From a virus: a stretch of 46,291 nt of DNA. Each line of letters starts with the position of its first letter. Within the stretch, counting starts at the first letter, position 1. Positions 3,472-32,563 of the stretch are shown piece by piece. Position numbers and translations under genes: made by a program. The notes beneath the pieces are model-generated. The model searched no databases. It saw nothing but the letters and a program-made list of their open reading frames with translations, and had not been told where the DNA came from. The stretch lies in the IMG/VR virus record IMGVR_UViG_3300045972_000110, positions 1 to 46,291 of that record; one strand, 5' to 3'.

Positions 3472-3481
3472 GGGAATCTCC

Positions 3482-19212: not shown

Positions 19213-19807
19213 TCAGTTCTCCCTCAAGTAAATCGTTGGCTATCAAGTTTTCGAGAACGGTCTCGTCGCTGGTGAGGTGGTCGTTCTCCTCCTCCAGCTT
19301 GGTGTACAGGTCGCAGCACAGGTCCTTGACCTTCTTCTCTGTGGCTTCGACGAACTTCACCCATTCGTTCTCGGCATCACGTATCTCGGACTCGCGGGCG
19401 TGCCAGCGCAGTGGTTCGTCTCTGCGGTCGAACTCGTTGCGCACATCGAAGTATTCGCTGAACTCCAGCGTCTCCGCGTGGCAGTAGTTGCCGCGTGAAT
19501 ACCAGCGCAGGGACCGGTCGGTGTACGCAGCCTTGAGCAGCACCGGGAAGTCTTTCGCCGCCCTGGTGAAGTCGGCCACGTACCCTTCGAAGCAGGCACC
19601 ATCTCCTTGGCTGCAAAAGCCGCTGAAGAATATCGACGGGCGACCATGGTTCACGTTGACGCCGTAGCCAGCTTCGATCAGGTCGTATTGGAACTGCTCG
19701 TAGACGTTGTCCCACCAGTGGTCTTCCATTTCAACAGGCCGGTGCTTGTCGAGGATCGCCTGCTGCTCGGTCTTGCTCAGCGCTTCGAAGCGTTCTTTAA
19801 GTTCCAC
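19193..19807 (-). CDS. conserved phage protein with SGF-SQGDGACFEG motif
   Basis: A 204-residue acidic protein. Helix LSKTEQQAILDKHR is followed by HWWDNVYEQF and the signature IFFSGFCSQGDGACFEGYV found in a very common phage family. That family is sometimes annotated as an antitoxin of a stability system, but without good evidence. GTG start at 19807, overlapping the end of the upstream gene, whose RRLRGT codons supply the AGGAGG ribosome site. Confidence 0.75.
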   Translation of the reverse strand: MELKERFEALSKTEQQAILDKHRPVEMEDHWWDNVYEQFQYDLIEAGYGVNVNHGRPSIFFSGFCSQGDGACFEGYVADFTRAAKDFPVLLKAAYTDRSLRWYSRGNYCHAETLEFSEYFDVRNEFDRRDEPLRWHARESEIRDAENEWVKFVEATEKKVKDLCCDLYTKLEEENDHLTSDETVLENLIANDLLEGELNEQESA

Positions 19808-20033
19808 GGAGCCTCCTCAGTGCGATGGGTTCAACCACCCAGTCTTCAGCTTCCTGCGCAGTGAGGAAGAATGCGGTCTGGTCGTACGCGGTGTGCGTTG
19901 TGCCACGGATTGTGCGAACTGCGTCATACCCGTTACGGTTTAACGCCTCCACGTACTGACCACAATGCGTACCTCGGTACTGGAGATACTTGCCTTTGCC
20001 GTCGGCAGAGAAGCTCCAAATCAGGTCGGACAT
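19797..20033 (-). CDS. hypothetical protein with C-terminal LRG tag (78 aa)
   Basis: A 78-residue protein, beta-rich (KYLQYRGTHC, TAYDQTAFFLTAQEAEDW), ending IALRRLRGT. The last codons contain both the AGGAGG site and the GTG start of the next gene. This is the first-cluster member nearest the VWA gene. Function unknown; see the finding on the shared C-terminal tag. Confidence 0.65.
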   Translation of the reverse strand: MSDLIWSFSADGKGKYLQYRGTHCGQYVEALNRNGYDAVRTIRGTTHTAYDQTAFFLTAQEAEDWVVEPIALRRLRGT

Positions 20034-20854
20034 AGCGCCAGGATCGCTTCAGCCTCGGCCACCACGCGGCCCCGCGCCGTCGCAGAGTTGCGCAGGAGCT
20101 GCGGGTTCACGAGGAGGCCGGAGATGATGCGCTCACACACGGTGTGCATGGTGGGGTCGTCACTGACATTGAGGCCCGGCAGAAGTCGGCTGAGGTCGTC
20201 GAGGTTGTCGATGAGGGAGTCATGCACGACTACTTTCTTCGCAGTGAGTCGAGCGCAGACGCGACCCACGGCTTCACGAATTCGTACCCAAGCGTCTTTG
20301 ATGGCGGCGGCTTGCCGCTTAGCCACTCGGTCAGCAATTTCTTGTCGTATGCGCCCGCGCTCGACATCAGATACGTCCACTCGAAAATCGGCCCCGTCAG
20401 GCACGGGCATGATGTCGATCTCCACGTCGAACTTGCCGTACAGTTCAGAGGGGTCGGGATAGTCGTCGGGGTCGTACATCGTGCCCAGGCGCTGACGGGC
20501 CTCCTGGACCAGGCGCGAGCTATAGAGCTGCGCAAACTTGGAGACCATGCTGGCGTACTCCTGCTTCATCTTGCGCATCTCTGCGCTGTACTCAGCGAAG
20601 AGTTTGGAGGGCAGCATGCGCGCGCCGTTGTCCATCCACGGCAAGGTCATCTTGTAGTGGTAGGTGCGAATCTGCCCTGCATAGCTGGTGAGCGGGTCCA
20701 GGTGGACCTTGTCGATCAGCAGCTTGTTGTAACGCCCCGCGTCGCGGGCGTTGTGTTGGGCCTCGACCTCGGCCGAGACCTTCTTGTCTTGTTTGCGTGC
20801 TGTCCAGCAGCTCACGGAGAGCGTGACCAGCATCGCTTTGTCTTGCAGACTCAT
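20021..20854 (-). CDS. DUF3150-like protein of the MoxR/VWA cassette
   Basis: A 277-residue mostly helical protein. Motifs include LVTLSVSCWTARKQDKKVS near the start and PWMDNGARMLP then YSAEMRKMKQEYASMVSKF. These match my memory of DUF3150, a family found next to MoxR-like ATPases and VWA or CobT-like genes in phages and bacteria. It probably works with those two proteins, whose genes flank it here at 18103 and 21671. Molecular activity unknown. The ATG overlaps the upstream stop, and GAGAGGG is its ribosome site. Confidence 0.7.
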   Translation of the reverse strand: MSLQDKAMLVTLSVSCWTARKQDKKVSAEVEAQHNARDAGRYNKLLIDKVHLDPLTSYAGQIRTYHYKMTLPWMDNGARMLPSKLFAEYSAEMRKMKQEYASMVSKFAQLYSSRLVQEARQRLGTMYDPDDYPDPSELYGKFDVEIDIMPVPDGADFRVDVSDVERGRIRQEIADRVAKRQAAAIKDAWVRIREAVGRVCARLTAKKVVVHDSLIDNLDDLSRLLPGLNVSDDPTMHTVCERIISGLLVNPQLLRNSATARGRVVAEAEAILALCPT

Positions 20855-21057
20855 AGCTTCCCTCTCAGTCTTTCGATTGCAAATAATTCGTGGAGGTGAT
20901 CAAGCACCTTGCGAGATGCCAGGTCATCCTTCTTCATGAAGTACCTGTGGTTCAAGTTGTAGAGCTGCAACGCAGTTCCAACGCTCACGTTCCTGGCCTT
21001 GGCGATGATTTCCCAGTGCTTCACACCGAGTTCGTTCGGCTCCAAGAACTCAGCCAT
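20851..21057 (-). CDS. hypothetical helical protein with C-terminal LRG tag (68 aa)
   Basis: A 68-residue protein starting FLEPNELGVKHWEIIAKAR and ending HELFAIERLRGKL. The P-x-x-L start and the tagged end place it with the next three upstream genes as divergent paralogues. Its AGA-GGG codons form the ribosome site for the DUF3150-like gene. Function unknown. Confidence 0.65.
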   Translation of the reverse strand: MAEFLEPNELGVKHWEIIAKARNVSVGTALQLYNLNHRYFMKKDDLASRKVLDHLHELFAIERLRGKL

Positions 21058-21274
21058 GCTGACCTCGCAGTCGGGCCAACATCATTGCTTCGTCGCACTG
21101 CTCCATCCATGTGTTGCCCATCTGGTGCCTGTACCAATACGAATACCAGTCGCGCACTCTCTCAACACCCTTACCGAGGTTCGATCCCATATACAGGATT
21201 TCGAACTTCGTGTTGAGTGCCAACAAGTGCTGCTCAGTCAGCTCACTCGGATGGAGGTACTTTGTTGTGCTCAC
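21050..21274 (-). CDS. hypothetical helical protein with C-terminal LRG tag (74 aa)
   Basis: The GTG start at 21274 is chosen because GCGAGG lies at good spacing and a KYLHPSEL start then matches the neighbouring paralogue's KYLHPNNL. The aromatic segment RDWYSYWYRHQMGNTW is followed by the tag EAMMLARLRGQHG. A much longer upstream extension in the same frame is low-complexity and overlaps two other genes, so it is rejected. Confidence 0.65.
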   Translation of the reverse strand: MSTTKYLHPSELTEQHLLALNTKFEILYMGSNLGKGVERVRDWYSYWYRHQMGNTWMEQCDEAMMLARLRGQHG

Positions 21275-21488
21275 CGCGCAACCTCGCTTTGGAAAATGCA
21301 TCGTTGAACTCGTCGAGCCGCTGCACCACCCGCTTGCGGGCATGCAGTGGGTCGTTGTGCCAGGTCTCGTAGAACCAGCGATACCAGGACGCTGCCTGGT
21401 CTCTCTCCGCGCCGTGGTGTCCGAGGAGATCGGACACGATCTCTTCCTCCCACGGCTGGAGGTTATTTGGGTGTAGGTACTTGTCCAC
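21243..21488 (-). CDS. hypothetical helical protein with C-terminal LRG tag (81 aa)
   Basis: A paralogue of the 21050 gene: KYLHPNNLQPWEEEIV, then SWYRWFYETWHND, then tag NDAFSKARLRGEHN followed by seven further residues. The GTG start at 21488 lies within the CGT-GGA codons of the upstream gene's own tag. Only a weak ribosome site is seen, so it is probably translated by coupling. Confidence 0.6.
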   Translation of the reverse strand: MDKYLHPNNLQPWEEEIVSDLLGHHGAERDQAASWYRWFYETWHNDPLHARKRVVQRLDEFNDAFSKARLRGEHNKVPPSE

Positions 21489-21696
21489 GGATTCTTGCCA
21501 ATGCAAATGCGTTCACGGACCACTCCATGCGAGCGACGCTGATCGTCGAAGGGTTCACGTGGCGCACAGCGGCGCCATAGTGCAGCCGGTAGCTTTCGCT
21601 TCCAGCGTTGTACCTCTTGCGGTAGATCAGCGACTGCCAAGCCTGAAGGTCTTCAGGCTTGACCCACTCATCACACGAGGAGATTTCGGTTCTCAC
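21463..21696 (-). CDS. hypothetical helical protein with C-terminal LRG tag (77 aa)
   Basis: Most upstream of the four helical paralogues: EWVKPEDLQAWQSLI and a variable middle, ending NAFALARIRGQVPTPK. It starts at a GTG 26 bp inside the MoxR gene's 3' end. Leu is replaced by Ile in the tag. Function unknown. Confidence 0.6.
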   Translation of the reverse strand: MRTEISSCDEWVKPEDLQAWQSLIYRKRYNAGSESYRLHYGAAVRHVNPSTISVARMEWSVNAFALARIRGQVPTPK

Positions 21697-22684
21697 GAAT
21701 CCAGCTCGTAAACGCTTTGGTTTCGCTGATGGCCTCGTCGCGGCGATCAGCCTGGGTGACGTACACCACCTCGAAGTCCTTGGACATGCGGCCCACGTAC
21801 TTCAGAAAGGCGGGGAACGTCTCGGGCGTGGTGCGCGCTTCCAGACCGGCCAGCACGGCGTAGCGTGTGGACGGGGAATCGGGCACCATGATGCCTTCGG
21901 GATCGTCGGCGATCTTGTCCAGGTCGGGCATGTTCTTGCGGTCGCGCGCGAAGCCGATCAACTTGGTCGCCACGCCTTCGCCGACGGTGCCCTGGAGGAT
22001 GGGCAGCATCACCTCGGAGCGCAGCTTGCTGTTGATCACCTTATCAGCCACAGCCCAGGTACGGGGCGTATGGAACGCGCGGGCGCCAGCTTCGATCTTT
22101 TCCACAATGAGGTCACCCGGCTGCATGCGGATGTAGCCACGGGTGGTCTCGCTGAGGCCATGGTTGATGGCCCAGTTGTTCCAGTCTTCGTGGTCCACCG
22201 TGAAGTCCAGGTGGATGAAGCGGTTGCACAGGGCGGCAGGCATAGCGTGTACAACGCTGCGGTCAGTGCTGCGGTTGCCAGCAGCCAGAACAGTCCATCC
22301 CGGAGGGAGTTCATAGTCGCCGATCTTGCGGTCCAGGATGAGCTGGTAGGCACCGGCCTGGACCGAGTTAGGCGCGGCGTTGATTTCGTCCAGGAACAGG
22401 ATGCCGTTGCCCTTGGTGGGCAGGCTGGCCATGGGGAAGAAGGCCATGGTCTTGGTCGCGGCGTCGGGCATGGGGAAGCCCTTGAGGTCAGTCGGATCGC
22501 AGTTCGACAGACGGATGTCCACGAACTGAAAGTGATCCTTCTTGGCCTTGATCTTGGAGTTGAGCAGCGCGACGGTTGCGCGCACCACGTCGGATTTGCC
22601 GACGCCGGGAGGACCCCAGATCATGGTCGGCTGCTGGATGCCCACGACGAATTCGAGGGCTTCGATGAGGAGAGAAGGCTTCAT
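21671..22684 (-). CDS. MoxR-like AAA+ ATPase
   Basis: A 337-residue AAA+ ATPase. Walker A is GPPGVGKS (24-31), Walker B GILFLDEINAAP, sensor 1 VLAAGNRSTDRS and the Arg-finger region ALCNRF. An FVDIRLSNCDPTDLKGFP segment is typical of MoxR proteins. MoxR ATPases act as chaperones or activators together with VWA proteins, and the VWA-metallopeptidase and DUF3150-like genes follow on the same strand. Start at 22684 chosen for AGGTGG; a GTG three codons upstream is possible. Confidence 0.9.
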   Translation of the reverse strand: MKPSLLIEALEFVVGIQQPTMIWGPPGVGKSDVVRATVALLNSKIKAKKDHFQFVDIRLSNCDPTDLKGFPMPDAATKTMAFFPMASLPTKGNGILFLDEINAAPNSVQAGAYQLILDRKIGDYELPPGWTVLAAGNRSTDRSVVHAMPAALCNRFIHLDFTVDHEDWNNWAINHGLSETTRGYIRMQPGDLIVEKIEAGARAFHTPRTWAVADKVINSKLRSEVMLPILQGTVGEGVATKLIGFARDRKNMPDLDKIADDPEGIMVPDSPSTRYAVLAGLEARTTPETFPAFLKYVGRMSKDFEVVYVTQADRRDEAISETKAFTSWIRENRNLLV

Positions 22685-22708
22685 GTTGTCCACCTAAGAG
22701 TTGAAGGG

Positions 22709-22927
22709 TTACGGGTACTTGCGCGGCCAGAGCATCAGGTTGACGCGCTCTGCGCCGAAGATCGTGAGATAGGACTCGGGGTACATCACGTTGCCGGGGG
22801 CAACGAACATTCCCTTGACCAGGTAGTGCGGGACATAAGTGATGCCCAGCATCGTGTAGCAGGCGGTCGATTCGACCTCGTGGGGAGTGCTGACGTTAGC
22901 CACGGTAGCTGCGATGGTCAGGTCCAT
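22709..22927 (-). CDS. hypothetical protein (72 aa)
   Basis: A 72-residue soluble protein with central YTMLGITYVPHYLVKGMFV, coupled to the upstream gene by a 32-bp overlap and 24 bp before the MoxR start. Only a weak ribosome site. No family recognised. Confidence 0.55.
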   Translation of the reverse strand: MDLTIAATVANVSTPHEVESTACYTMLGITYVPHYLVKGMFVAPGNVMYPESYLTIFGAERVNLMLWPRKYP

Positions 22928-23057
22928 AGGTCACACAGTGCGTGGTGACTCCAAGCTCATCGCGCTTCGCCTTGGCAGCGGGCTTGGAAGAAAAGAACAG
23001 GTTGGGGATGACTCGACCGGTGGTCAGGTCACGGATGGCGAACAGGCGAAGATTCAT
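22896..23057 (-). CDS. small hypothetical protein (53 aa)
   Basis: A 53-residue basic protein (MNLRLFAIRDLTTGRVIPN, FFSSKPAAKAKRDELG) ending DHRSYRG. The pattern of strand, 'F-S-S-K-x-x-A-K-x-x-R-D' helix and strand is common in short phage proteins that describe a predicted beta-alpha-beta unit. An 18-bp dispersed motif lies 26 bp upstream, so it probably heads the MoxR transcript. Confidence 0.6.
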   Translation of the reverse strand: MNLRLFAIRDLTTGRVIPNLFFSSKPAAKAKRDELGVTTHCVTYGPDHRSYRG

Positions 23058-23083
23058 GGTATCCACTTCTAAGAAGAACGGGG

Positions 23084-23101
23084 TTAGATCGAAAACAGAG
23101 T
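23084..23101 (-). promoter_or_regulatory. 18-bp dispersed motif, copy 6
   Basis: The leftward strand reads ACTCTGTTTTCGATCTAA, 26 bp before the 23057 start. It differs from the primase-helicase copy mainly at the CGATCT/AGATCG positions. Confidence 0.55.
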
Positions 23102-23106
23102 ATAGA

Positions 23107-23268
23107 TTAAGAAATGAAGATGATCTCCTCTTTATTGAACACTTGGTACAGATATCGGTGCTTGTACGGCATGGCAACTTCGACCCGATGGCTGTCGAGC
23201 CACCGCACAATGCGCCCGGATGTCCAGGCTACCGGAACGAGGCGCATTGGCACAAGGACGTTCAGCAC
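23107..23268 (-). CDS. small hypothetical protein (53 aa)
   Basis: A 53-residue protein starting at a GTG that overlaps the upstream stop (GTGCTGA). It is basic and beta-like: VRWLDSHRVEVAMPYKHRYL, ending in an acidic-hydrophobic EEIIFIS. Last gene of the metallophosphoesterase transcript. No family recognised. Confidence 0.5.
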   Translation of the reverse strand: MLNVLVPMRLVPVAWTSGRIVRWLDSHRVEVAMPYKHRYLYQVFNKEEIIFIS

Positions 23269-23405
23269 AGGGTTCCCTTCGATTTGATGTGTTTGTTGCC
23301 GTCATTGCGGAAATACACACGCTCCTGATTCGGCTGGTACTTCGTGTAGCGCCGGGGCACCGTGGGCTGCGGAGGCAGCTTCTTAACTTTTGGTTTGTCG
23401 GTCAC
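23262..23405 (-). CDS. small basic protein (47 aa)
   Basis: A 47-residue Lys/Pro-rich protein (KPKVKKLPPQPTVPRRYTKY) starting by GTGA overlap with the metallophosphoesterase stop. Probably disordered and nucleic-acid-binding by composition. Function unknown. Confidence 0.5.
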   Translation of the reverse strand: MTDKPKVKKLPPQPTVPRRYTKYQPNQERVYFRNDGNKHIKSKGTLC

Positions 23406-23923
23406 TTGTTCATCTCCTGCGCCCGGAGGTTGTTCACCACCATGCGCTGCATCACGTCGTCGATGGACATGGGGGCCATGACCTTCGAGGCATCCACACC
23501 CACATCCAGGCGGTTGTGCTTCACACCGGCTGTGCCGTGTGAGTGGCCGTGCAGGTGGTACTGGTACTCGCGGCGCCACGACTCCAGAGGGTAGTGGCAG
23601 AGCACGAAGCGGCGCGCGGGGTCCACCTTCAGGTACGCCAGCTCGGGCAGCACCTCGTCGAAGAGGTGCATGACCTTCTTGGCGCGCTCCAGGTCGTGGT
23701 TGCCAGGCACCAGCTTGATCTTGCCGTTGAGGCGCGGAATCAGGTGGTAGTCGCCGAAGGCCACGTCGCCGAGGTGGTAGACGGTGTCCTTGGGCTTCAC
23801 GGTCTCGTTCCACATTTGCACCATGCACTCGTTCATCCCCTCCACGGTTTCGAACGGACGCTTGCAGTATTGGATGATGTTGTTGTGCCCGAAGTGTGTG
23901 TCGGATACGAAGAAGATGGTCAT
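23402..23923 (-). CDS. calcineurin-like metallophosphoesterase
   Basis: A 173-residue phosphoesterase. Metal-site motifs: SDTHFGHNN (D-x-H), LGDVAFGD (GD), PGNHDLER (GNHD), CHYPLESW (H) and HGHSHG (GH-x-H). Small phage enzymes of this type hydrolyse phosphodiesters or nucleotides; some counter host signalling nucleotides, but the substrate cannot be read from sequence. Coupled by ATGA to the 42-residue gene upstream. Confidence 0.9.
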   Translation of the reverse strand: MTIFFVSDTHFGHNNIIQYCKRPFETVEGMNECMVQMWNETVKPKDTVYHLGDVAFGDYHLIPRLNGKIKLVPGNHDLERAKKVMHLFDEVLPELAYLKVDPARRFVLCHYPLESWRREYQYHLHGHSHGTAGVKHNRLDVGVDASKVMAPMSIDDVMQRMVVNNLRAQEMNK

Positions 23924-24048
23924 TCTTCAACCTCGAAGTAAATTATTTCTGTCCATTCGGAGCGGGAGTCGTAACGCTCCAACTCCTTCTTGAAATTCCA
24001 TTCATTGAAGGTGTCGTCCCACCGAATGAATCCGCGCTTGGCTTTCAT
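23920..24048 (-). CDS. small hypothetical protein (42 aa)
   Basis: A 42-residue protein (KRGFIRWDDTFNEWNFKKEL) between two 4-bp overlaps. It is acidic at the C-terminus. No family recognised; overlaps on both sides are the support. Confidence 0.5.
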   Translation of the reverse strand: MKAKRGFIRWDDTFNEWNFKKELERYDSRSEWTEIIYFEVEE

Positions 24049-24341
24049 TTGGCGACTCCAATCACGGCCAACGCGATGGCCTTTTGCGGGGTGCATTCAC
24101 TCACGTAGATTCCTTTGTAGCCGGCTTCCCACCCGTAGTCCCAGCGGATGGGGAACGCGTTGTACCGCTCCGCAACCGGTCCAGCGATGGTCCAGTCGCG
24201 GTAGTCGAAGACTTTCCAGTCGTTGTGCCACGTGTAGTCATTGCTGACGTTGACGTAGAAGACGCCACTCTCGACGGCGCATTGACGCTCAGTCCACCCA
24301 ATCGCCAGTGCGAGGGCCTTGGAGATTTCGAGGTCGGTCAC
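24045..24341 (-). CDS. conserved hypothetical phage protein (98 aa)
   Basis: A 98-residue protein: helix ISKALALAIGW, then aromatic-rich WHNDWKVFDYRDW, FPIRWDYGWEAGYKG, and a final helix TPQKAIALAVIGVAK. This resembles a widespread family of about 100-residue phage proteins that start with A-L-A-x-A-I-G-W, function unknown. GTG start overlapping the upstream stop. Confidence 0.65.
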   Translation of the reverse strand: MTDLEISKALALAIGWTERQCAVESGVFYVNVSNDYTWHNDWKVFDYRDWTIAGPVAERYNAFPIRWDYGWEAGYKGIYVSECTPQKAIALAVIGVAK

Positions 24342-24634
24342 GCCACCACCTCATTAGGCACAGCGCTGAGCATGCCCTTCAGCGTGGGGCCAAGCGTGTT
24401 CGCGCCGTAGCCCCCGTGTTTGTAGTAGAGGGTCTTCTTCCCGTTCCACTCGGAATAGACCTGCATCACCACCGTGCCATCAGCATAGGCGTGGCCGGTG
24501 CGACGGGCTTTGTCAGAGAGCACCACGGTGTCGCCACTGAGGTTCAACCACTCGGCTGGACGGTCAGTCGTGATGAACTGCGGCGCGTTGTGCGCTGTCG
24601 GGCGCGGACGGTATTCGATGATGAAGGTTGTCAT
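24338..24634 (-). CDS. hypothetical protein (98 aa)
   Basis: The start at 24634 is preceded by GGGAGG at slightly long spacing. A beta-rich 98-residue protein (TTFIIEYRPRP, GTVVMQVYSEWNGKKTLYY). It shares its first 71 bp with the out-of-frame end of the zinc-finger-like gene upstream. Function unknown. Confidence 0.6.
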   Translation of the reverse strand: MTTFIIEYRPRPTAHNAPQFITTDRPAEWLNLSGDTVVLSDKARRTGHAYADGTVVMQVYSEWNGKKTLYYKHGGYGANTLGPTLKGMLSAVPNEVVA

Positions 24635-24923
24635 GATTCCATGCCTCCCAGAGGGTTCTTGCTGCTTTGCTGGGTTTGGGTTTGTACACACCCTTCTTAG
24701 GGGGTGTGCCACTTGGGTGCGCTTTGCCAAAGACTTGTCGGAAAAGGTACAGCCACACGCCGCACTCTTTGCAGTGCGTGGCGTAGACCTTCTTGCGCGA
24801 GTCCCGCGTGAAGTCGCTGCTCCTCTTCTGTTCGCCACAACACGCACACCCGCGTAACTTGGGTGGGCACCCGACCCGCAGGTTTGTCTGGCGGTTCGGG
24901 TTGAACGGGGGCGGTCCGGCCAT
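24564..24923 (-). CDS. zinc-ribbon-like hypothetical protein (119 aa)
   Basis: The start at 24923 overlaps the upstream stop (TAATG). Residues about 25-57 form a zinc-ribbon pattern, CACC...HCKEC, with SSDFTRDSRKK between, as in many phage zinc-finger proteins. A basic tail follows. The last 24 residues overlap the next gene in another frame, so the true end could be altered by an error; I keep the ORF as read. Confidence 0.6.
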   Translation of the reverse strand: MAGPPPFNPNRQTNLRVGCPPKLRGCACCGEQKRSSDFTRDSRKKVYATHCKECGVWLYLFRQVFGKAHPSGTPPKKGVYKPKPSKAARTLWEAWNHDNLHHRIPSAPDSAQRAAVHHD

Positions 24924-25735
24924 TACTTCACGTTGATGAAGGGCAGGGCACCACCAGCCTGCGTGGTGGGCAGCTTGCCGTCCCACTTGGCGATGGCCTG
25001 GAGCTGCACATATTCAGCGCCGCCCGAGGCTGCAACAGCCGAGGCACGCAGCTTGGTGGCGTCAGCGTCACCGGCAGCTTCGACACGTTTGCGGTCGGCT
25101 TCGAGCTTGGCCAGCTCCAGCTCCTTGGTCTTGGCGTTGATCTGGAACTGGCGTGTAGCCGATTCCTTCACTGCGGCTTCCAGCGTCGGGTCGGTCTGCA
25201 TGTTGCGCACGTTGACGCTGCGCACGAAGAACCAGCCCTTGCCTGCCGAGGCGTCCAGGTCAGCTTGCAGGGTCTTCACCACGCCGTCAGCGATGCTGGC
25301 GCGTTCGGTGTGGACTGTGGAGCTGTTGCGCTTGGCGATGTCGCTGTAGATCGCTTCACGCGCCTGGCGCGTCACGTAGTTGATGCCCACGCGTGCGCCG
25401 TCTTCGTCTTTTTCCTTGGTGAGGTCACCAGGCCAGCGGGTCATGATCTCGGGCGCGTGGGCCGGGTCGATCTGGACGTAAATGTCCACGTCCAGGTCAG
25501 CCAGGTTGATCTTGTCGGCCGTCTGGGGCTTCAGGTCGTCGAGCGACAGGCGCAGTTCCTTGGCGCTGACCTCGGTCACGCGCTTGAATAGGGTGAAGTA
25601 CATGCCAGGGGGCATGGTCTCCTTCTTGACCTGGCCCAGCGTGGACTCGACGCCCACGTTGCCGGTGTCAATCTGGGAGCAGCCGGTCACCAAAGCGGCC
25701 AAGGAGATGAAGGCGACGGAGAAGAGTTTTTTCAT
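24923..25735 (-). CDS. SPFH/prohibitin-like lipoprotein
   Basis: A 270-residue protein with signal peptide MKKLFSVAFISLAALVTGC and lipobox Cys19, so it is predicted to be lipid-anchored outside the cytoplasm. The body is an SPFH/band-7 domain (GNVGVESTLGQVKKETMPPG, DVDIYVQIDP, VTRQAREAI, GWFFVRSVNVRN) followed by the Ala/Glu-rich coiled coil that drives oligomerisation in this family. Phage copies are known, but their job is unclear; membrane protection or superinfection control are options. Confidence 0.85.
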   Translation of the reverse strand: MKKLFSVAFISLAALVTGCSQIDTGNVGVESTLGQVKKETMPPGMYFTLFKRVTEVSAKELRLSLDDLKPQTADKINLADLDVDIYVQIDPAHAPEIMTRWPGDLTKEKDEDGARVGINYVTRQAREAIYSDIAKRNSSTVHTERASIADGVVKTLQADLDASAGKGWFFVRSVNVRNMQTDPTLEAAVKESATRQFQINAKTKELELAKLEADRKRVEAAGDADATKLRASAVAASGGAEYVQLQAIAKWDGKLPTTQAGGALPFINVK

Positions 25736-25923
25736 ACGATGTTGATAGAGCTGAGACGAACGGCGGTGAACAGGGCACCGAAGATTGCAGTGCTGAGGAT
25801 CGTGATCCACGGCAGATGCTTGCGAGCGAGTCGCTTCACCGTGCGCCGGAACAGCGCCGAGGAAGTGACCCACATGAAGTAGGCGAGCAGCCCAAGGACG
25901 AGCAGGAGGAGGGCGTGTTTCAT
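25732..25923 (-). CDS. small membrane protein (63 aa)
   Basis: Two membrane helices, about residues 3-25 and 40-57, joined by a basic loop RRTVKRLARKH. Coupled by ATGA overlap to the SPFH lipoprotein gene, so the two may act together at the envelope. Function unknown. Confidence 0.65.
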   Translation of the reverse strand: MKHALLLLVLGLLAYFMWVTSSALFRRTVKRLARKHLPWITILSTAIFGALFTAVRLSSINIV

Positions 25924-26093
25924 TCGATCACCACCGTTTCAGGGTGTTTGATGAGCTTGGCACGCATTACAGCGGCTTCACGGTTGCTCCAGAAGTCAAC
26001 CTTGACCCAGATAGGTAGCCACCAACGCTTCACATAGATACCGTAAAACTGGTCACCGTAAGCGCTGACGTACGGTTGAACTTTGACTTTCAC
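25920..26093 (-). CDS. small hypothetical protein (57 aa)
   Basis: A 57-residue protein starting at a GTG overlapping the upstream stop. It shows FYGIYVKRWWLPIWVKVDFW, then helix NREAAVMRAKLIKHP. This strand-Trp-helix form is common in tiny phage proteins of unknown role. Confidence 0.55.
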   Translation of the reverse strand: MKVKVQPYVSAYGDQFYGIYVKRWWLPIWVKVDFWSNREAAVMRAKLIKHPETVVIE

Positions 26094-26611
26094 GGGCGGC
26101 TGTCCACGAAGGCCACGAGCTTGTCGATGTCGAGCTGGAGTTCGTGGATCACGTTCTTCAGCTTCTGGGGCTTGGCTACGATCTTATTCAGACCTTCGAT
26201 CTTGCGTTCCAGGTCGGCAATCTTGGTGAAGATTTGCGAATCGCTCATGCTGGCGGCGTCTTCGCCCTGGATGAAGGTCTTGGTTTCGATATTCTTGGTC
26301 ATGGGTTCTTCCTTGCGGAGTTGAGGTTGGGGGGAATTGATGAAGCCTTCTTGCTGCGCCGTTTCAGTGGGCAGCACGATGCGGTAGTAGGTCGTGGTCG
26401 ACGTGTCGAACTCGACCAGGCCGAGCTGGCGCAACTTCACGACCACGCCATCGGAGGGACGTGACAGCGTCTGAGCCATCTGCTTGAGCGTGGCGCCGGC
26501 CATGTAGAGGCTGCGCAGTTGTTCGTACTCGTGGTCAGTCCAGGTCTTGCCGTGGCGTGCGCGGATTTCATAGTCGTTCCGCGCAAAGCCTGTATCAAAC
26601 TTGTGTCTCAT
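26090..26611 (-). CDS. SANT/HTH-like domain plus coiled-coil protein, with internal start
   Basis: A 173-residue protein. Residues about 20-65 form a helix-turn-helix of SANT type (KTWTDHEYEQLRSLYMAG, TLKQMAQTLSRPSDGVVV). Residues 104-173 form a coiled-coil unit (MTKNIETKTFIQGEDAASMS, then SQIFTKIADLERKIEGLNKI). AAGGAAG lies 5 bp before the internal in-frame ATG at residue 104, so the C-terminal part is probably also made alone. Stand-alone relatives of that unit exist in phages. Regulatory role possible. Confidence 0.65.
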   Translation of the reverse strand: MRHKFDTGFARNDYEIRARHGKTWTDHEYEQLRSLYMAGATLKQMAQTLSRPSDGVVVKLRQLGLVEFDTSTTTYYRIVLPTETAQQEGFINSPQPQLRKEEPMTKNIETKTFIQGEDAASMSDSQIFTKIADLERKIEGLNKIVAKPQKLKNVIHELQLDIDKLVAFVDSRP

Positions 26612-27030
26612 GCCAGCTTCTCCAGGTACGCCTTGACCTTCGATTCGTTCTCGTTGCGGTCGTCGTCGTAGCCACCGGTGCTGAAGTAGAACTTGTCGGA
26701 CTTCAGGTATTCGAGCTGGGTTTCTTCGGGGTCAAACTGACCTTCGAAGCCGTAGCAGGAGCAGTGACCGCCGCTGAACTCCCACAGCGTGTTGTCGCTG
26801 TTCTTGCGCATAAGGAACCAGGAGGATGAGTCGCACCCCCAGTTACCCACGGACTCATAGGCGATCAAGATGGTGAAGTCGTCCAGCTTCTTAGCCAACG
26901 TGGCCACGTCGTCGCTCGGACGACCGTAGTCGAAACCAGACTTGTCACCGGCGTATTCGCCAGCGATGTGTTTTTTGACTTCGTAGGGCGTCATGCCTTT
27001 GAGGTCAGCGAGGAATAGAGGGTTGTTCAT
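26608..27030 (-). CDS. conserved hypothetical phage protein (140 aa)
   Basis: Start at 27030 by ATGA overlap. Contains FTILIAYESVGNWGCDSSSW and the motif GGHCSCYGFEGQFDPEET, which recurs in a phage family of unknown function. Acidic C-terminus ending in a short helix. It may bind a metal through the His/Cys cluster. Confidence 0.7.
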   Translation of the reverse strand: MNNPLFLADLKGMTPYEVKKHIAGEYAGDKSGFDYGRPSDDVATLAKKLDDFTILIAYESVGNWGCDSSSWFLMRKNSDNTLWEFSGGHCSCYGFEGQFDPEETQLEYLKSDKFYFSTGGYDDDRNENESKVKAYLEKLA

Positions 27031-27221
27031 TTGCTTTCTTCTTTCGCAACGTGAGCCACCGGCATGTACAGCACGGTGAGATTGGTGACGGCCCATTCGA
27101 GGGCCTGGATTTCAGACTTGTCCCACGTGTTCACAAAGTCTGGGTTAGCTGCGCGCTTGCGCAAGAAATCAATGCGTCGCTTGAGCATGCGCAAATGCTT
27201 CGCTGGTCCTGATCCACTCAT
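27027..27221 (-). CDS. hypothetical helical protein (64 aa)
   Basis: A basic 64-residue helical protein (AKHLRMLKRRIDFLRKRAAN, EIQALEWAVTNL). An 18-bp dispersed motif ends 2 bp before its ATG and contains the only purine-rich stretch there. First gene after the tag cluster. Function unknown. Confidence 0.6.
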   Translation of the reverse strand: MSGSGPAKHLRMLKRRIDFLRKRAANPDFVNTWDKSEIQALEWAVTNLTVLYMPVAHVAKEESK

Positions 27222-27223
27222 CT

Positions 27224-27241
27224 TTCGATCTTTCTTAGAGG
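27224..27241 (-). promoter_or_regulatory. 18-bp dispersed motif, copy 7
   Basis: The leftward strand reads CCTCTAAGAAAGATCGAA, ending 2 bp before the 27221 ATG. Unlike copies 4 and 5, its TAA is not a stop codon of the preceding gene, so the conservation is not due to coding. Confidence 0.55.
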
Positions 27242-27248
27242 TTAGATT

Positions 27249-27473
27249 CTAGCTGTAGGTTCCACGCAATCGGGCGAGTGCGGCGTTGTCCTCGGTTAAA
27301 TAAATTCCTTCGCGTCCTCCGTTGCCCTCGTGCCACCGAGAGCACTTCGGTTCGTGGTTAGGAAATTTGCACGACACTTGCTCCCCGGTAGTAGTGTTGC
27401 GGAGGTCGTAGTAGCACGGCTTGCAGCCGGTGCCATACTGTACGTGGATCATCACAATCTTCTCTTCAGCCAT
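27249..27473 (-). CDS. Cys4 small protein with C-terminal ALARLRG tag, paralogue 1
   Basis: A 74-residue protein: MAEEKIVMIHV strand, CKPC, two further Cys (VSCKF and PKCSR), then IYLTEDNAALARLRGTYS. The four Cys suggest a zinc site. It is the last gene of the cluster: nothing starts inside or right after its tag, and LRG is written TTG-CGT-GGA with no ribosome site. The tag is therefore kept at protein level. Confidence 0.75.
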   Translation of the reverse strand: MAEEKIVMIHVQYGTGCKPCYYDLRNTTTGEQVSCKFPNHEPKCSRWHEGNGGREGIYLTEDNAALARLRGTYS

Positions 27474-27669
27474 ACGTGCCCCTCAGTCTTGCGAGTGCGG
27501 CCTTGTCCTCGGTGAGGTAGATGTATTCCTTCGCGCCGAAGTGATCACGTTTGGAGCACTTGCGGTTCGGCACATCGGGGTGGCTGCACAGTGCTGCGCA
27601 TGCGTAGTGACAGTTCTCACATCCGTGGTCAATAGGCACCCTAATCTTGACGATCTTCTCTTCGCTCAC
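27466..27669 (-). CDS. Cys4 small protein with C-terminal ALARLRG tag, paralogue 2
   Basis: A 67-residue close paralogue of the next gene: MSEEKIVKIRV, GCENC, C at ALCSH and RKCSK (with one extra Cys), YIYLTEDKAALARLRGTYG. GTG start; AGAGGAGG in the upstream gene's tag codons is its ribosome site. Function unknown. Confidence 0.75.
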   Translation of the reverse strand: MSEEKIVKIRVPIDHGCENCHYACAALCSHPDVPNRKCSKRDHFGAKEYIYLTEDKAALARLRGTYG

Positions 27670-27902
27670 AGCTTGCCTCCTCTCAGTCGCGCCAGGGCCA
27701 GGCGGTCGGCGCTGATGAACACGACCTCGGTGCGGTCGGGGCGCTCTTCCTCCCCGCAGTTCAGAACGTCACACAGGCCCATGCGGGTCCTGTGTCCTTC
27801 ACAGACCCCGCAGCCCTTGTCTTGTGTACCTGGCGGTATGTCGAAGACAGACACAGCGCACATCTCCACACCGAGGTGGGTGATGGTCTCAAGTGGGGTC
27901 AT
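27666..27902 (-). CDS. Cys4 small protein with C-terminal ALARLRG tag, paralogue 3
   Basis: A 78-residue protein with GCGVC, then MGLCDVLNC, and VVFISADRLALARLRGGKL at the end. It starts inside the YYDPT tail codons of the upstream paralogue. Its own CTG-AGA-GGA tag codons serve as ribosome site for paralogue 2. Confidence 0.75.
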   Translation of the reverse strand: MTPLETITHLGVEMCAVSVFDIPPGTQDKGCGVCEGHRTRMGLCDVLNCGEEERPDRTEVVFISADRLALARLRGGKL

Positions 27903-28128
27903 AGTAGCCTCGCAGCCTGGCCAAGAGGGCCTTGTCAGGGGGGACGAAGATTACGCCCTCGGGGCCTGTCTTGCGTCCGCTCTCGCTGCGTGCAGTGGAG
28001 GTGCAGTACGCAAGGCCTCTGCAAGATATTTTCCAGAACACACACGGCTCACAGCCCTGCTGTATGGTGTCCGTGATCGCAGTGGCGGTTATGTCGTCGA
28101 TGGTCACGGTCTCGTAGATGCGTATCAC
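27889..28128 (-). CDS. Cys4 small protein with C-terminal ALARLRG tag, paralogue 4
   Basis: A 79-residue protein: MIRIYETVTIDDITATAI, GCEPC, SCRGLAYC, VIFVPPDKALLARLRGYYDPT. GTG start overlapping the upstream stop. Function unknown. Confidence 0.75.
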   Translation of the reverse strand: MIRIYETVTIDDITATAITDTIQQGCEPCVFWKISCRGLAYCTSTARSESGRKTGPEGVIFVPPDKALLARLRGYYDPT

Positions 28129-28337
28129 AGCTCACCTCGCAGTCGCGCTTTGAGCGCATCGTCGGGCAGCATGAAGAACACGGTGGTCTCGTCGCGGCGT
28201 TCAGATGAAAGGCACGGGAGAGCGCCGCAGTCGTGCAGTTCCCTGAACACGCAATGCGTGCAGCGACCTCCGTTCACATGCACCACAGGCGTCAGCTCCT
28301 GGTCGCGATGCGTCTCGTCGGGCAGCAGCTTACTCAC
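28125..28337 (-). CDS. Cys4 small protein with C-terminal ALARLRG tag, paralogue 5
   Basis: A 70-residue protein: RCTHC, HDCGALPC, TVFFMLPDDALKARLRGEL. The LPDD-AL-x-ARLRG end is the closest match to the scaffold protein's C-terminus (LPDDVLARMRGDEFV). GTG start within the upstream gene's last codons. Confidence 0.75.
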   Translation of the reverse strand: MSKLLPDETHRDQELTPVVHVNGGRCTHCVFRELHDCGALPCLSSERRDETTVFFMLPDDALKARLRGEL

Positions 28338-28560
28338 GCCACTCTCCGCGCAGCCTCACCAGTGCGGCCTGCTCACTCGTGAGGAAGATCACGTCCTGGC
28401 TGTCTTTGCGTTCGGATTTCATGCAAGGGACTTCCAGGCAGTCATGGTCTTTGTGCAGCGCGCAGTGAGCGCACCAATCTTCTACGTCGGCATGTCTGAT
28501 GCCGTTCATGGGGTGGAGCACCAAACCTTCATGGGTCTCAGGTTTCAGAACTTGGTTCAT
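28330..28560 (-). CDS. Cys4 small protein with C-terminal ALARLRG tag, paralogue 6
   Basis: A 76-residue protein: WCAHC, HDCLEVPC, VIFLTSEQAALVRLRGEWRE. It resembles paralogue 5 across its length. Its start overlaps the end of the frameshifted paralogue 7. Function unknown. Confidence 0.75.
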   Translation of the reverse strand: MNQVLKPETHEGLVLHPMNGIRHADVEDWCAHCALHKDHDCLEVPCMKSERKDSQDVIFLTSEQAALVRLRGEWRE

Positions 28561-28781
28561 TTATTCTTCCTCTCAATCTTGCTTTGAGTGCGTCATCTGT
28601 GTACATCCAGATGATGGTTTTCCCGTCGGGAGGTGTATCGTTGCAACGGCCTATCACGGTGGTGCATTTGCTCACGTCATACCCAATGCACGCGTGGCAG
28701 GGTAGGGCTGGGTCCCCCTACGTTATGCACCGCCACGATCTCCTTGCCTTCATAGACCTTGGTCTCCAGCAGTTGGATCAT
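28538..28781 (-). pseudogene. frameshifted Cys4/ALARLRG paralogue 7
   Basis: The ATG at 28781 overlaps the upstream stop and encodes MIQLLETKVYEGKEIVAVHN, nearly identical to paralogue 8. The frame then runs into an early stop. Skipping one base in the G5 run (C5 at 28714-28718) restores a full family protein: PCHACIGYDV, SKC, GRC, IIWMYTDDALKARLRG and a short tail ending at 28538. This is either a real one-base insertion, a homopolymer sequencing error, or, less likely, a programmed shift. Confidence 0.7.
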
Positions 28782-28990
28782 CGGATTTCTCCTCTAAGCC
28801 GTGCCTTAAGGGCGTCCTCGGTGTACATCCAGATGACGGCACTGCTACCACCACGTGCGGGAGGACTGCATGGGGGCAGGTCGCCGCATTCGATGCTGAA
28901 CCCTATGCACCCCTTGCAACTGCCGAAGGTGTGTACCGCCACGATCTCCTTGCCTTCATAGACCTGGGTCTCCAGCAAGGTGATGGTCAT
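28778..28990 (-). CDS. Cys4 small protein with C-terminal ALARLRG tag, paralogue 8
   Basis: A 70-residue protein: MTITLLETQVYEGKEIVAVH, SCKGC, IECGDLPPC, VIWMYTEDALKARLRGEIR. It overlaps the primase-helicase stop by 4 bp, so the whole cluster is translated from the primase-helicase transcript and is probably made early. Confidence 0.75.
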   Translation of the reverse strand: MTITLLETQVYEGKEIVAVHTFGSCKGCIGFSIECGDLPPCSPPARGGSSAVIWMYTEDALKARLRGEIR

Positions 28991-31365
28991 TTCGTCTTCG
29001 CCTTACCCTTCGGTGCGAAGTGGTCGTCGATGTACTTCTTGAAGTTCATCGTGTCCTTCCACTGCACGCTCAGGCCGTTGACCGACTTGTTGTTCACCCA
29101 CACCACCTTGGTGTGCACGCGGTGGTGTTTGAGCAGCGAGGTGAACTTGTTGGGTGACACCGGGATGTTGCCCACCACGTACTCGAAGATCGTGCGCAGC
29201 TCATCGCGTGCGATGTTGCATGCGCCTGTGCTGGCTGTGCGCCCGAGCAGCGCGGCCAGAGCTTCACGGTAGTCTTCCACCTTGTTGCTCTGCACCGCGT
29301 TGCGGGTGTAGGACTGGTCGGTGGGCAACTGGTCGATGAAGAAGCCGAAGTTGCCTTCGAGCAGAGCGCTAGCTACCGTGTCGATGGAGGACTCGGAGAT
29401 GGAGATCATGGTGTCGCGGTCCGTGGTGTGGATCACTTCACCGGCCTTCTGCTCATCCAGGGGGTAGGACAGCAGGAAGTCGTGGAACGATTGCAGCTCC
29501 TTGTTGATCGTGTCGAGTTCCTTGTCAGTCAGCGCGATCTTGCCTGGCTGGTAGGCACCGACGTTGAAGCGGCGGTCGTTCTTGTCGATCAGCACCGGGT
29601 CCGTCATGTTGGACATGAGAATCCAGTTGGTGTAGTTGCGCGCCTCCTGGGCGTTGCTGTACATGGCACGCATGGGCACGTTCTCTTCAGTGATGAAGTT
29701 CTTGAGCTTGGCCATGACGCCAGTGGCACTTTGCAAAGCCTTGATCTGCACCTCGTCCACCAGCACCAGGAGCGAGTTCTCCATGAACTGGTTGTACTTG
29801 TCGCCCAGTTCCTCCATGCGGCGGCTAGCTACGTGAGCGGCGCCGAAGATGGGGCGCAGGATGTTGTTGGTGAGAATCCCCTTGCCTGTGCCCTGCGTGC
29901 CATGCAGCACCCAGGCTGTCTTGGTGCGATCACGCTTTTGCAGGATGAAGGCACACCAGTTCAGGAAGTGCTCGGTGATGTCCACATCCAGGCCCAGTGC
30001 GTGGTGCAGGACCTTGAAGATGGTGGGCGGGCACTTGGTCACCTTCTTGGCCGTGGCCTTCATGTAGGGGCTGGGCACGAACTTGTTGATGGTCTTGTTG
30101 GCTACGTCAACACGCACGTTGTCCATGGGGTCGAAGACAAGGTCCCATTCAGGGATGTAGTCGCCGAGAGGGACACCGTATTGCAGGGCGAAGTGACGGA
30201 GCTGGGTTTCGTTCTTGGCAGCGGTGATGTCGAGAAGGTCAGCAGCGTTGTCATAAGTGCCCCGGTAATACACACCAGACTTGCGGTCACAGAAAGCCAG
30301 GTAAGTAATGCCCGACGATGACGTGCGCAGATTTCCGCTCGATGTGATCTGGAGCCAGTATTCAGGCAAGAGTTCTTTGGTGAGATAGCTCGGCTCTCCT
30401 TTGAAATTGTGGATGTAGTCCGGCTTGTCCTCGGGGTGGTAGTAGGCCCAGGAGTCGCCACCGTTCAGGTTGAAGTACACGAAGCCACGCTCGGTCTTCA
30501 TCTCGGTGATGGATGCCTCATCCGGCTTGAGCATCACCTCAGCGCTGCCCACGATCTTGTAGGTGAACTTGCGCTTGGGCAGGAAGGCTAGCTCACGCAG
30601 TTCAGCAATGCGGTCGTGGGTGAGCTTCTTGTTCTTCTCGGTCGTGTTGATGGTGCTGGTCAGCGCCAGGACATCGAACTTGCGCTTCATGAGCGCAATG
30701 CGTGGCGACTTGCCCATCGGGTCCTTGATGCCTTTGAGCACAGGACTCGCGATGTAGATCAGCTTGTCGTTTTGGCAGGCACTGATGTCCAAGGGCCAGG
30801 AGAGGGAGTTGCCAGTCTTGGTCAGGCCCATGGCTTCACGCAACAGGGGGATCTCATGGTTCTTCTGGATCAGCCACTGCTTGATCAGCGGTGCTGCATA
30901 TGCCTTGTCCAGCATCATGAACACATGGGCACGAATCTTCTTGTCTGTGACACCGTATGACGCAGACCACTGCACGATGTAGGAGATGTCTTCGAGACCG
31001 AGTTCCTTCAGGAACAGGTCAATGGTGAGCGGTGTGCTCAGGGTCTGTCCACCAGGTGTGGTGACAGAGATGTGCTCGGGCAACCCATCGAGGTCCAACA
31101 CAAGCCACTCGGTGGTGTCGTTGGTGTTGGTACTGCCTGCACGGGATTCTTTCACCAGGTCACGTCCGATCAGACCCTTGAGCACACAGTGACCACGGGC
31201 AGCGTGTTTGTTCAACAGGGATTCGAACTGGGGGAGGTTGTTGACCACTTCTTTGTGGGAGGTGAACTCCCACGTCATGGGGTAGGGAGTCTTGGTTAGC
31301 TCACCGTTGACCTTGGAGTATTGCTTGGTCAACGGCTCAGGAGCTTGCAGGAAAACGACTTGCAT
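28987..31365 (-). CDS. primase-helicase (D5-like, SF3/AAA+)
   Basis: A 792-residue replication protein. The N-terminal half holds an archaeo-eukaryotic-primase-like region with a D-x-D motif (LVLDLDGL) and QWSASYGV. The C-terminal half is a D5/DUF5906-type helicase: Walker A HGTQGTGKG, Walker B LLVLVDEVQ and sensor NWILMSN, followed by FITEEN and DRRFNVG. It would unwind the fork and prime synthesis for the family-A polymerase. GAAAGGA ribosome site, with an 18-bp motif 27 bp upstream. The AT-rich candidate origin lies directly before it. Confidence 0.9.
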   Translation of the reverse strand: MQVVFLQAPEPLTKQYSKVNGELTKTPYPMTWEFTSHKEVVNNLPQFESLLNKHAARGHCVLKGLIGRDLVKESRAGSTNTNDTTEWLVLDLDGLPEHISVTTPGGQTLSTPLTIDLFLKELGLEDISYIVQWSASYGVTDKKIRAHVFMMLDKAYAAPLIKQWLIQKNHEIPLLREAMGLTKTGNSLSWPLDISACQNDKLIYIASPVLKGIKDPMGKSPRIALMKRKFDVLALTSTINTTEKNKKLTHDRIAELRELAFLPKRKFTYKIVGSAEVMLKPDEASITEMKTERGFVYFNLNGGDSWAYYHPEDKPDYIHNFKGEPSYLTKELLPEYWLQITSSGNLRTSSSGITYLAFCDRKSGVYYRGTYDNAADLLDITAAKNETQLRHFALQYGVPLGDYIPEWDLVFDPMDNVRVDVANKTINKFVPSPYMKATAKKVTKCPPTIFKVLHHALGLDVDITEHFLNWCAFILQKRDRTKTAWVLHGTQGTGKGILTNNILRPIFGAAHVASRRMEELGDKYNQFMENSLLVLVDEVQIKALQSATGVMAKLKNFITEENVPMRAMYSNAQEARNYTNWILMSNMTDPVLIDKNDRRFNVGAYQPGKIALTDKELDTINKELQSFHDFLLSYPLDEQKAGEVIHTTDRDTMISISESSIDTVASALLEGNFGFFIDQLPTDQSYTRNAVQSNKVEDYREALAALLGRTASTGACNIARDELRTIFEYVVGNIPVSPNKFTSLLKHHRVHTKVVWVNNKSVNGLSVQWKDTMNFKKYIDDHFAPKGKAKTK

Positions 31366-31392
31366 GATGTCCTTTCAGAAAGAGGGAGTGTA

Positions 31393-31410
31393 TTCGATCT
31401 AAAACAGAGC
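31393..31410 (-). promoter_or_regulatory. 18-bp dispersed motif, copy 8
   Basis: The leftward strand reads GCTCTGTTTTAGATCGAA, 27 bp before the primase-helicase ATG, at the edge of the AT-rich region. Confidence 0.55.
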
Positions 31411-31630
31411 TTCGAACCAAAAGGCATAAGACCTGTTCATAAGCCCTGTTTCCCTCTATACCTCTATATACCTTATACTCTTATACTTATAATCTTATCT
31501 TATCAATTAGAGAATATTATTTTAAGTAAGTAGATTAGTAATTGTCTATATAGAGATAGGGACGGCCAAAAGCCTAAGACCCCAGCCTCTACTCAGGTAT
31601 TACCCATCGACCCAGGCCAGGGAAATAGGC
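31411..31630. other. AT-rich non-coding region, candidate replication origin
   Basis: No gene is seen between the primase-helicase and the 31664 gene. About 31445-31560 is strikingly AT-rich in a GC-rich genome. Its first 60 bases on the + strand contain no G and include repeated CTTATACT/TTATA units. CCTCTATATA near the start and TATATAGAGATAGGG near 31546-31560 form an imperfect inverted repeat. Next to the primase-helicase this fits an origin or a strong promoter region. Confidence 0.45.
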
Positions 31631-31652
31631 GGGTAGAGCCGAAGCCCTACCC
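31631..31652 (-). terminator. TTCG-loop terminator after the 31664 gene
   Basis: The leftward strand GGGTAGGGC-TTCG-GCTCTACCC forms a 9-bp stem (one G-T) with a stable tetraloop, 11 bp after the stop. The following CCTATTTCC is a weak U-tract. Confidence 0.6.
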
Positions 31653-31663
31653 AACCATTTCAC

Positions 31664-32563
31664 TTAGCCGACGTTTGCTTCCGACGCTTCAGCAACACGC
31701 TGAGCAGTACGGAACTTCGGAGATGCGAACACACGCTTGATGTCACGCTCAACATTGAACGCACCATCGTCGATGTCATCGCACTCACGATCAGACAGCG
31801 AGCGGTCATCTTCAGCCCACTCAGCCACGTTGGCAGCAGCACGCTGAGCGTTATCCATCAGCACGCGTTGCAGCTCGATGGGCAGCGCAGAGAACTCTTT
31901 GCTGCGTTCCGCTGCGCTGCTCTCGTCAGAGGTCAGTGCGAAGTGCATCATCAGCACAGCAGCACCGGTCATCGCGTCCACGTTCTCTTTCACTTGCACC
32001 AGCTTGTCTTCCTTCTTGGCCAGCTTGGCTTCGAAGCGACGCGTTGTGGTCTCAGCATCCCAGTCGTAGGCCTTGGCACGACGTTGCAGGTTGACCTTCA
32101 TGCGACGCTGTGTGTCTTGGCCCACGCGGTAGGGCTTGTCGCTGTTGAACGCAGCTTCAATGTCGGGAATCTCGTATGACCGAGCGTTACCTTGCCAGTC
32201 CCAAGTCTGGGAGACCAGTTCCTTGGCCAGCTCATGCCACTGGTCACGCTGCGAGTTGAGTGCACGGATGTTCTCGCATGCAGTCTCGTTCGTGGAGCCT
32301 TGCTCGTGGAAGGACGACTCTGCGAAGTCCTTCTCGTGCAGCGCAGCAGTCAGCTCAGCCATGGAGTCCACGCCGCCATTGGCTTGGAACAACTCCTGAC
32401 GGATGTTCTTGAAGATGCCACGTGCGTTGGTGACGATGAGCTGGTCGATCTTCCACGCAGTGGACGCAGCCATCTGGGCAGCGATGCGAACTTCAGGCAC
32501 CTTGCTGACGTAGTCGAAGAGGTTGAAGTATTGGTGGGTGTTGGTGGTGTTAGCAGCAGACAT
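31664..32563 (-). CDS. hypothetical protein (299 aa)
   Basis: A 299-residue acidic, mostly helical protein. An N-terminal NTHQYFNLFDYVSKVPEVRI start is followed by coiled-coil-like central helices (RRFEAKLAKKEDKLVQVKEN) and a charged C-terminus. No family recognised. It has its own terminator downstream and a 308-bp leader upstream, so it is probably a separate, well-expressed unit. AGGAG ribosome site 6 bp before the ATG. Confidence 0.75.
   Translation of the reverse strand: MSAANTTNTHQYFNLFDYVSKVPEVRIAAQMAASTAWKIDQLIVTNARGIFKNIRQELFQANGGVDSMAELTAALHEKDFAESSFHEQGSTNETACENIRALNSQRDQWHELAKELVSQTWDWQGNARSYEIPDIEAAFNSDKPYRVGQDTQRRMKVNLQRRAKAYDWDAETTTRRFEAKLAKKEDKLVQVKENVDAMTGAAVLMMHFALTSDESSAAERSKEFSALPIELQRVLMDNAQRAAANVAEWAEDDRSLSDRECDDIDDGAFNVERDIKRVFASPKFRTAQRVAEASEANVG

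Follow-up and report, generated by a model that had tools for sequence, protein, structure and literature searches.

What is the function of a row of eight small cysteine-rich genes directly behind a phage primase-helicase, and why do their products all end in the same short motif? The question was addressed using the window, which is the whole of IMG/VR virus record G000 (46,291 bases), from a phage of an environmental sample.

Organisation of the Cys4 array

The array consists of eight consecutive overlapping genes on the minus strand (positions 28990–27249), directly after a gene on the same strand (28987–31365) that encodes a DUF5906 primase-helicase (PF19263, E 3.3e-19). This primase-helicase is 42 % identical over its full length (792 aa) to that of Pseudomonas phage KPP25 (Kochitakasuvirus), and the window is closer to uncultured relatives of 60–68 kb than to KPP25. 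Seven of the eight Cys4 genes are intact. The first after the primase-helicase, gene 1, is an open reading frame for 70 aa (28778–28990) and is followed by gene 2 (28538–28781), gene 3 (76 aa, 28330–28560), gene 4 (70 aa, 28125–28337), gene 5 (79 aa, 27889–28128), gene 6 (78 aa, 27666–27902), gene 7 (67 aa, 27466–27669) and gene 8 (74 aa, 27249–27473), the last of the array. Gene 6 has a likely counterpart in a relative, G418, within 38482–38865, and gene 7 has a counterpart in L007/L039. Gene 2 is frame-shifted at a run of five G residues (28714–28718) and gave two profile matches in different frames, with the tag intact in the second; likely counterparts in G002 and G418 are intact. The run may be an assembly error, real decay or a phase-variable run.

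Each intact member was searched for with a profile built without that member. All seven were found, with E values of 1.4e-13, 1.7e-16, 2.8e-11, 2.6e-10, 4.9e-16 and 5.5e-11 for genes 1, 4, 5, 6, 7 and 8, respectively, and 2.6e-10 or better throughout. When the tag was removed, every intact member was still found at E 6.5e-5 or better, which shows that the Cys4 family is real independently of the tag. A degenerate DNA pattern for the tag occurred seven times against 0.95 expected.

The proteins share the layout C-x2-C, a spacer of 6–14 residues, C-x4-12-C, a strand such as [VI]-[FYW]-[LMV] and a tag ending in RLRG. An earlier note, made from the sequence, had described eight consecutive genes after the primase-helicase, with which the open reading frames and leave-one-out profiles agree, and a coupled transcript of diversified tandem paralogues, which is borne out by the gene overlaps and by the presence of the next gene's ribosome-binding site in the tag codons. 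Its size range of 67–79 residues holds for the seven intact copies, and gene 2 is two frames rather than one open reading frame. The Cys pattern was recovered as described (C-x2-C, spacer, strand and tag), except that the second pair measures C-x4-12-C and not C-x4-10-C. The strong difference between N-termini that it reported holds in part: the first six genes share a hairpin pattern around L-x-E-T and then a strand, the last two, 7 and 8, have a shorter N-terminal arm, and the divergence lies mainly in the Cys core.

Two further features of the window were recorded. A tRNA-Val (GAC) gene (1905–1981) lies beside a phage-type integrase gene (2482–3513), which shares 56 % identity with an integrase gene of a Rhodoferax MAG (L042); this is a possible attachment site, though the nearest named relatives (the KPP25 group) are described as lytic. 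The proteins encoded at 5995–6396 and 16328–16972 contain similar segments (GARGITVCGEWM and GGRGITICPEWM), and these may be related mobile endonuclease-type genes.

Relationship to other phage proteins

Judged by profile similarity, the core of these proteins is not a new family but falls into a scattered group of phage Cys4 proteins that occur as single copies, among them PHROG_33085, a family with no assigned function. PHROG_33085 covers the Edwardsiella phages Edno5, GF-2 and PEi21, and likely members of the group were also found in Vibrio, Bacteroides and crAss-like phages, as weak tblastn matches that were accepted on the Cys pattern and alignment. A profile of the array (A2) matches Edno5 at E 5e-8, and an outgroup profile (A6) made up of the Edwardsiella, Vibrio, Bacteroides and crAss-like proteins matches window genes 3 and 4 at 6.3e-10 and 2.1e-7, gene 3 being the closest to the outgroup family. 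Alignment of the array and outgroup profiles with hhalign (prob 95, E 1.9e-8) spanned the hairpin, the four Cys and the strand. The PHROG_33085 model itself reached only E 0.02 (gene 3) or 0.0013 per genome, with control genomes giving matches at E up to 1.

The window proteins have both the Cys4 pattern (C-x2-C, C-x(n)-C, then an aromatic/aliphatic strand) and significant profile similarity to the group in both directions, but they do not end at the strand. As they add a C-terminal helix, the tag, they were filed as a variant branch and not as plain members of the PHROG_33085 group. With PHROG_33085 they share the C-x2-C ... C-x(n)-C core, the N-terminal hairpin, the final VIFV strand, constant ends around a variable core, and their place as small genes in an overlapping operon. 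PHROG_33085 differs in having one copy per phage and no C-terminal RLRG tag, and in Edno5 and GF-2 the gene is in the recombination/integrase region and not after a primase-helicase. The proteins of the crAss-like phage 'Rudgehvirus jaberico' (WEU69883), Vibrio phage VP506 and Bacteroides phage C3_41T2LP have the same core (e.g. CRKCALYTHTTCYDVKCLSNERKDNNNIIYV compared with CAHCALHKDHDCLEVPCMKSERKDSQDVIFL in window gene 3) but no tag, and no tandem array was seen in the flanks read. More generally, every outgroup Cys4 protein ends with the strand, and no second copy was seen in the flanks read.

The earlier note knew of no described family with this layout, which no longer stands for the core, a known phage family that is functionally uncharacterised; the profile search that it proposed turned up no well-characterised family of known function. 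There was no functional match for the Cys4 proteins in Pfam, PHROGs, NCBIfam, PADLOC or PDB, the last searched both by fold and by sequence. Megablast of window positions 20000–32000 against known phages, a primase scan of bacterial genomes and a search of plasmids found nothing, and back-translation scans of IMG/VR with single members or A5 found nothing beyond the L007 copy. Two matches (E 0.001–0.002) in 399 genomes of the family to which the Rhodoferax MAG hit belongs lie inside long frames and were taken as chance. What looks new, as far as sequence comparison can tell, is the tandem expansion together with the C-terminal helix ending in R[LIM]RG, which is absent from the outgroup members. 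Neither the tagged expansion nor the sharing of the tag across families was found described in the libraries or open-licence papers searched, and none of those papers described a tandem Cys-rich phage family.

Copy number and divergence

A small Cys4 protein that is widespread among phages has been expanded in this lineage. In addition to the eight copies in the window, there are five in G418 (38058–39160, where they too follow the primase-helicase directly), two in G002, one or more in G003 (at a contig end), one in G004 and a degenerate one in L011. Copies are absent from G001, KPP25 and nearly all of about 40 further related records, many of which are fragments. Relatives with arrays are few (G000, G418 and G002).

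Twenty homologous pairs were compared in three segments. Mean identity was 0.52 in the N-terminal arm, 0.31 in the Cys core (cysteines included) and 0.71 in the strand and tag. A similar distribution was found in the Cys4 gene of three Edwardsiella phages (L026, L040 and L041), where the 5' and 3' ends are near-identical and the middle differs almost completely among the three: the first 60 nt are 83–92 % identical and the middle 46–50 %, which is about the level of unrelated sequence after gapped alignment. Constant ends around a fast-changing core are the pattern expected of a displayed variable surface that binds targets. Relaxed constraint could also account for the rapid change of the Cys core, and gene 2 does not form an intact frame.

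The explanation that we consider best, to which we give not quite an even chance, is that these are expanded Cys4 proteins whose variable zinc loops bind changing host or defence targets while a constant tag docks them to one partner. Each protein would be built from an N-terminal arm that changes little, a Cys4 loop region that diverges fast, and a strand with a constant helix ending in RLRG. The Cys pattern suggests that each probably holds one zinc. The variable zinc loops would be the surface that contacts the target and would have diversified, through duplication followed by divergence, as host or defence targets changed, presumably in counter-defence, and the helix tag, found also on at least three unrelated small-protein families, would attach all these families to the same partner. 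The anti-defence role proposed in the earlier note is a reasonable inference for the array. No described defence or anti-defence model was matched in PADLOC, Pfam or NCBIfam, though PADLOC covers defence and holds few counter-defence models.

Alternatively, the proteins could be small zinc-ribbon-like regulators that act on nucleic acid or RNA polymerase and serve replication or transcription of the phage rather than counter-defence. The position of the array right after the primase-helicase would fit such a role, as would a faint likeness in profile searches to nucleic-acid binders rich in Cys (ribosomal protein L36A and Ppr1, E 0.1–0.2), but these matches fall short of significance and there was no hit in the search by fold. 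Copy number ranges from 0 to 8 among phages with primase-helicases that are 86–89 % identical, which argues against a core replication role, and the Cys core is the least conserved part. We regard this possibility as improbable.

The tag is shared by unrelated families

The tag can be written [DE]-x-[AFI]-[AL]-[LK]-x-R-[LIM]-R-G, after which comes a short free end. The earlier note had placed it on the Cys4 genes, where it was confirmed, but it is present on five other genes of the window as well. In its entry on the array, the note mentioned neither this sharing by unrelated families nor the likeness to the end of the putative scaffold protein. In total, it was found on four unrelated families: Cys4, YLxP, 'SADG' and a fourth type (LDEVI). 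RxRG is kept in 31 of 31 collected tags, an invariance that is partly by construction because most tags were found through RxRG; the [DE], A and L upstream of it played no part in how the tags were collected. The tags of the different families match each other at prob 74–96. Matches to ARLRG inside a helicase-like frame at 15278 and 16029 are internal and were taken as chance.

The YLxP genes form a second tandem array on the minus strand (20851–21696), right after a gene for a MoxR-like AAA ATPase (21671–22693), and encode four helical paralogues. The first (21463–21696) belongs, by the AF2 model of the family, to an all-alpha type unrelated to Cys4; the second (21243–21506) is the protein that was modelled, and it is followed by the third (21050–21274, with an inferred GTG start) and the fourth (20851–21057). 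The single 'SADG' gene of the window (19797–20033, minus strand) encodes a protein ending in ALRRLRGT, with homologues at L052:10630–10869 and L043:609–851, and this third type of small protein, ending in ALRRLRG, is also found in G418 at 29281–29526 and 29043–29297. The fourth type was seen in G418 (11714–11950) and G001, with a further example at L043:15817–16029.

The AF2 model of a Cys4 protein is a beta hairpin with a C-terminal helix, in which the tag helix (residues 58–66) lies behind the last strand with a pLDDT of 79–85; the Cys core is of low confidence (pLDDT about 55). The YLxP protein is predicted to be helical (pLDDT 81), with the tag ending the last long helix. In these models the tag is one short module, carried by at least four unrelated proteins with two clearly different predicted folds.

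The MoxR-like ATPase gene and a gene for a DUF2201 metallopeptidase-VWA protein (18103–19212) flank the second array of tagged genes. The two products were considered as candidate recognisers of the tag. Such a MoxR-type ATPase is also found in phages without tag proteins, and its presence or absence therefore cannot decide on tag recognition.

The end of ubiquitin is LRLRGG, and the tag, with R-L-R-G and a variable, removable-looking extension, could in principle be a ubiquitin-like tail for conjugation or processing. However, the tag has a single G as a rule, and neither an E1-like ThiF domain nor a prokaryotic JAB protease was found in G000, G001, G006 or G418, though host enzymes could act instead. 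With these partners absent from the four genomes the idea was rejected, and we consider it scarcely credible.

Overlap of the tag with ribosome-binding sites

At all seven internal junctions of the Cys4 array, the ribosome-binding site of the next gene falls inside or adjoins the RG codons in the preceding gene's tag. Because these codons also form the next gene's ribosome-binding site, the unit of duplication is a gene together with that site. This overlap of the tag and the start signal in the DNA helps to explain the clean duplication of units, but not the tag itself.

It might be argued that RLRG has no protein function and is kept mainly as the Shine–Dalgarno sequence of the next overlapping gene, given that each of the seven junctions has, inside the RG codons or immediately after them, a purine-rich stretch that pairs with the 16S tail. 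However, ALARLRG (with CGT-GGA codons) is retained in the last gene of the array, although this gene's neighbour starts 27 nt further on. The amino acids of the tag stay constant where its codons vary, conservation ([DE], A and L) extends 6–9 positions upstream of the G, and the other families keep the tag. As terminal copies retain the tag without needing it, a ribosome-binding site is not its sole cause; an artefact of this kind alone is largely ruled out, and we rate this account as very improbable.

A putative scaffold protein with a tag-like end

A gene on the plus strand (40134–41174), between the portal (phrog_156) and capsid (phrog_334) genes, encodes a putative scaffold protein with a tag-like C-terminus (LPDDVLARMRGDEFV). 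The protein is matched by no PHROG or Pfam model, and the label was assigned from position and composition. When 87 conserved C-terminal profiles of the window were compared with the tag profile, only the putative scaffold matched (prob 83.7, P 8e-6; next best prob 1.3), and when its last 18 columns were shuffled, the score was reached in none of 600 trials and in one of 1000. A plain residue pattern gives softer evidence: of some 980 genes, two or three unrelated ones have it close to the C-terminus as well. The scaffold-like end is kept in homologues, recognisable down to KPP25, and a related end is found beside the coat gene in Roseobacter phage CRP-9. In relatives the end LPDDVLARMRGD is likewise C-terminal, for example KARLRGDEL in G014 compared with KARLRGEL in window gene 4.

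This resemblance suggests that the tag may bind the coat protein and package the tagged proteins for ejection, like the internal proteins of T4. More precisely, the tag would imitate the coat-binding C-terminus of the scaffold, and the tagged proteins would enter the procapsid via the coat and either be ejected with the DNA as ready-made effectors, as in T4, or tune capsid assembly, as CpmB of SaPI1 does. This is a specific form of the explanation favoured above, with the coat protein as the common partner. There are precedents for both parts. The scaffold of 80alpha and CpmB of SaPI1 share a C-terminal helix and RIIK hook that bind the coat (PMC5644958), and T4 packages small proteins by way of capsid targeting sequences; one of these proteins, IPI, is an inhibitor of a type IV restriction enzyme (PMC9026906).

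The likeness to either system is hypothetical. The T4 internal proteins IPI, IPII and IPIII are small proteins that diverge except for a short terminal signal which they have in common, and IPI is an anti-restriction protein. The T4 signal is N-terminal and cleaved, and there is no sequence relation. In the window and its relatives four families share a terminal tag, but it is C-terminal and would be no more than a candidate targeting signal. CpmB is a small protein sharing a C-terminal helix and a basic-hydrophobic hook with a scaffold, but it is not homologous to the window proteins and redirects capsid size for a satellite, whereas the window proteins are the phage's own and are many.

Several observations weigh against delivery in the capsid. 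The role of the scaffold rests on position and composition, and the resemblance spans about 11 residues. The aligned scaffold homologues have a D after RG, which no tag does, and the first R, invariant in the tags, is variable in the scaffolds. The full-profile comparisons A1–A3 and A4–A3 were weak (prob 12 and 2). Many phages have the scaffold end without tag proteins, and the array lies in the replication region and not among the late genes. We therefore hold this form of the explanation to be possible but doubtful.

Implications

Small Cys4 proteins are scattered among phages, and a lineage in which they have multiplied with their ends kept and their core varied offers a handle for comparing cores and targets. 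The shared tag is a second, independent handle, in this case on its partner. At its most general, and this is rather doubtful, the scaffold-like C-terminal tag may be a capsid-delivery signal for at least four unrelated small-protein families, including an expanded and rapidly evolving set of Cys4 effectors ejected with the genome to block host defences, and so the C-terminal counterpart of the capsid targeting sequence of T4. If the partner were the coat protein, any protein carrying the tag could be predicted to be a passenger of the virion, and a whole set of uncharacterised phage proteins would become recognisable by their last twelve residues.
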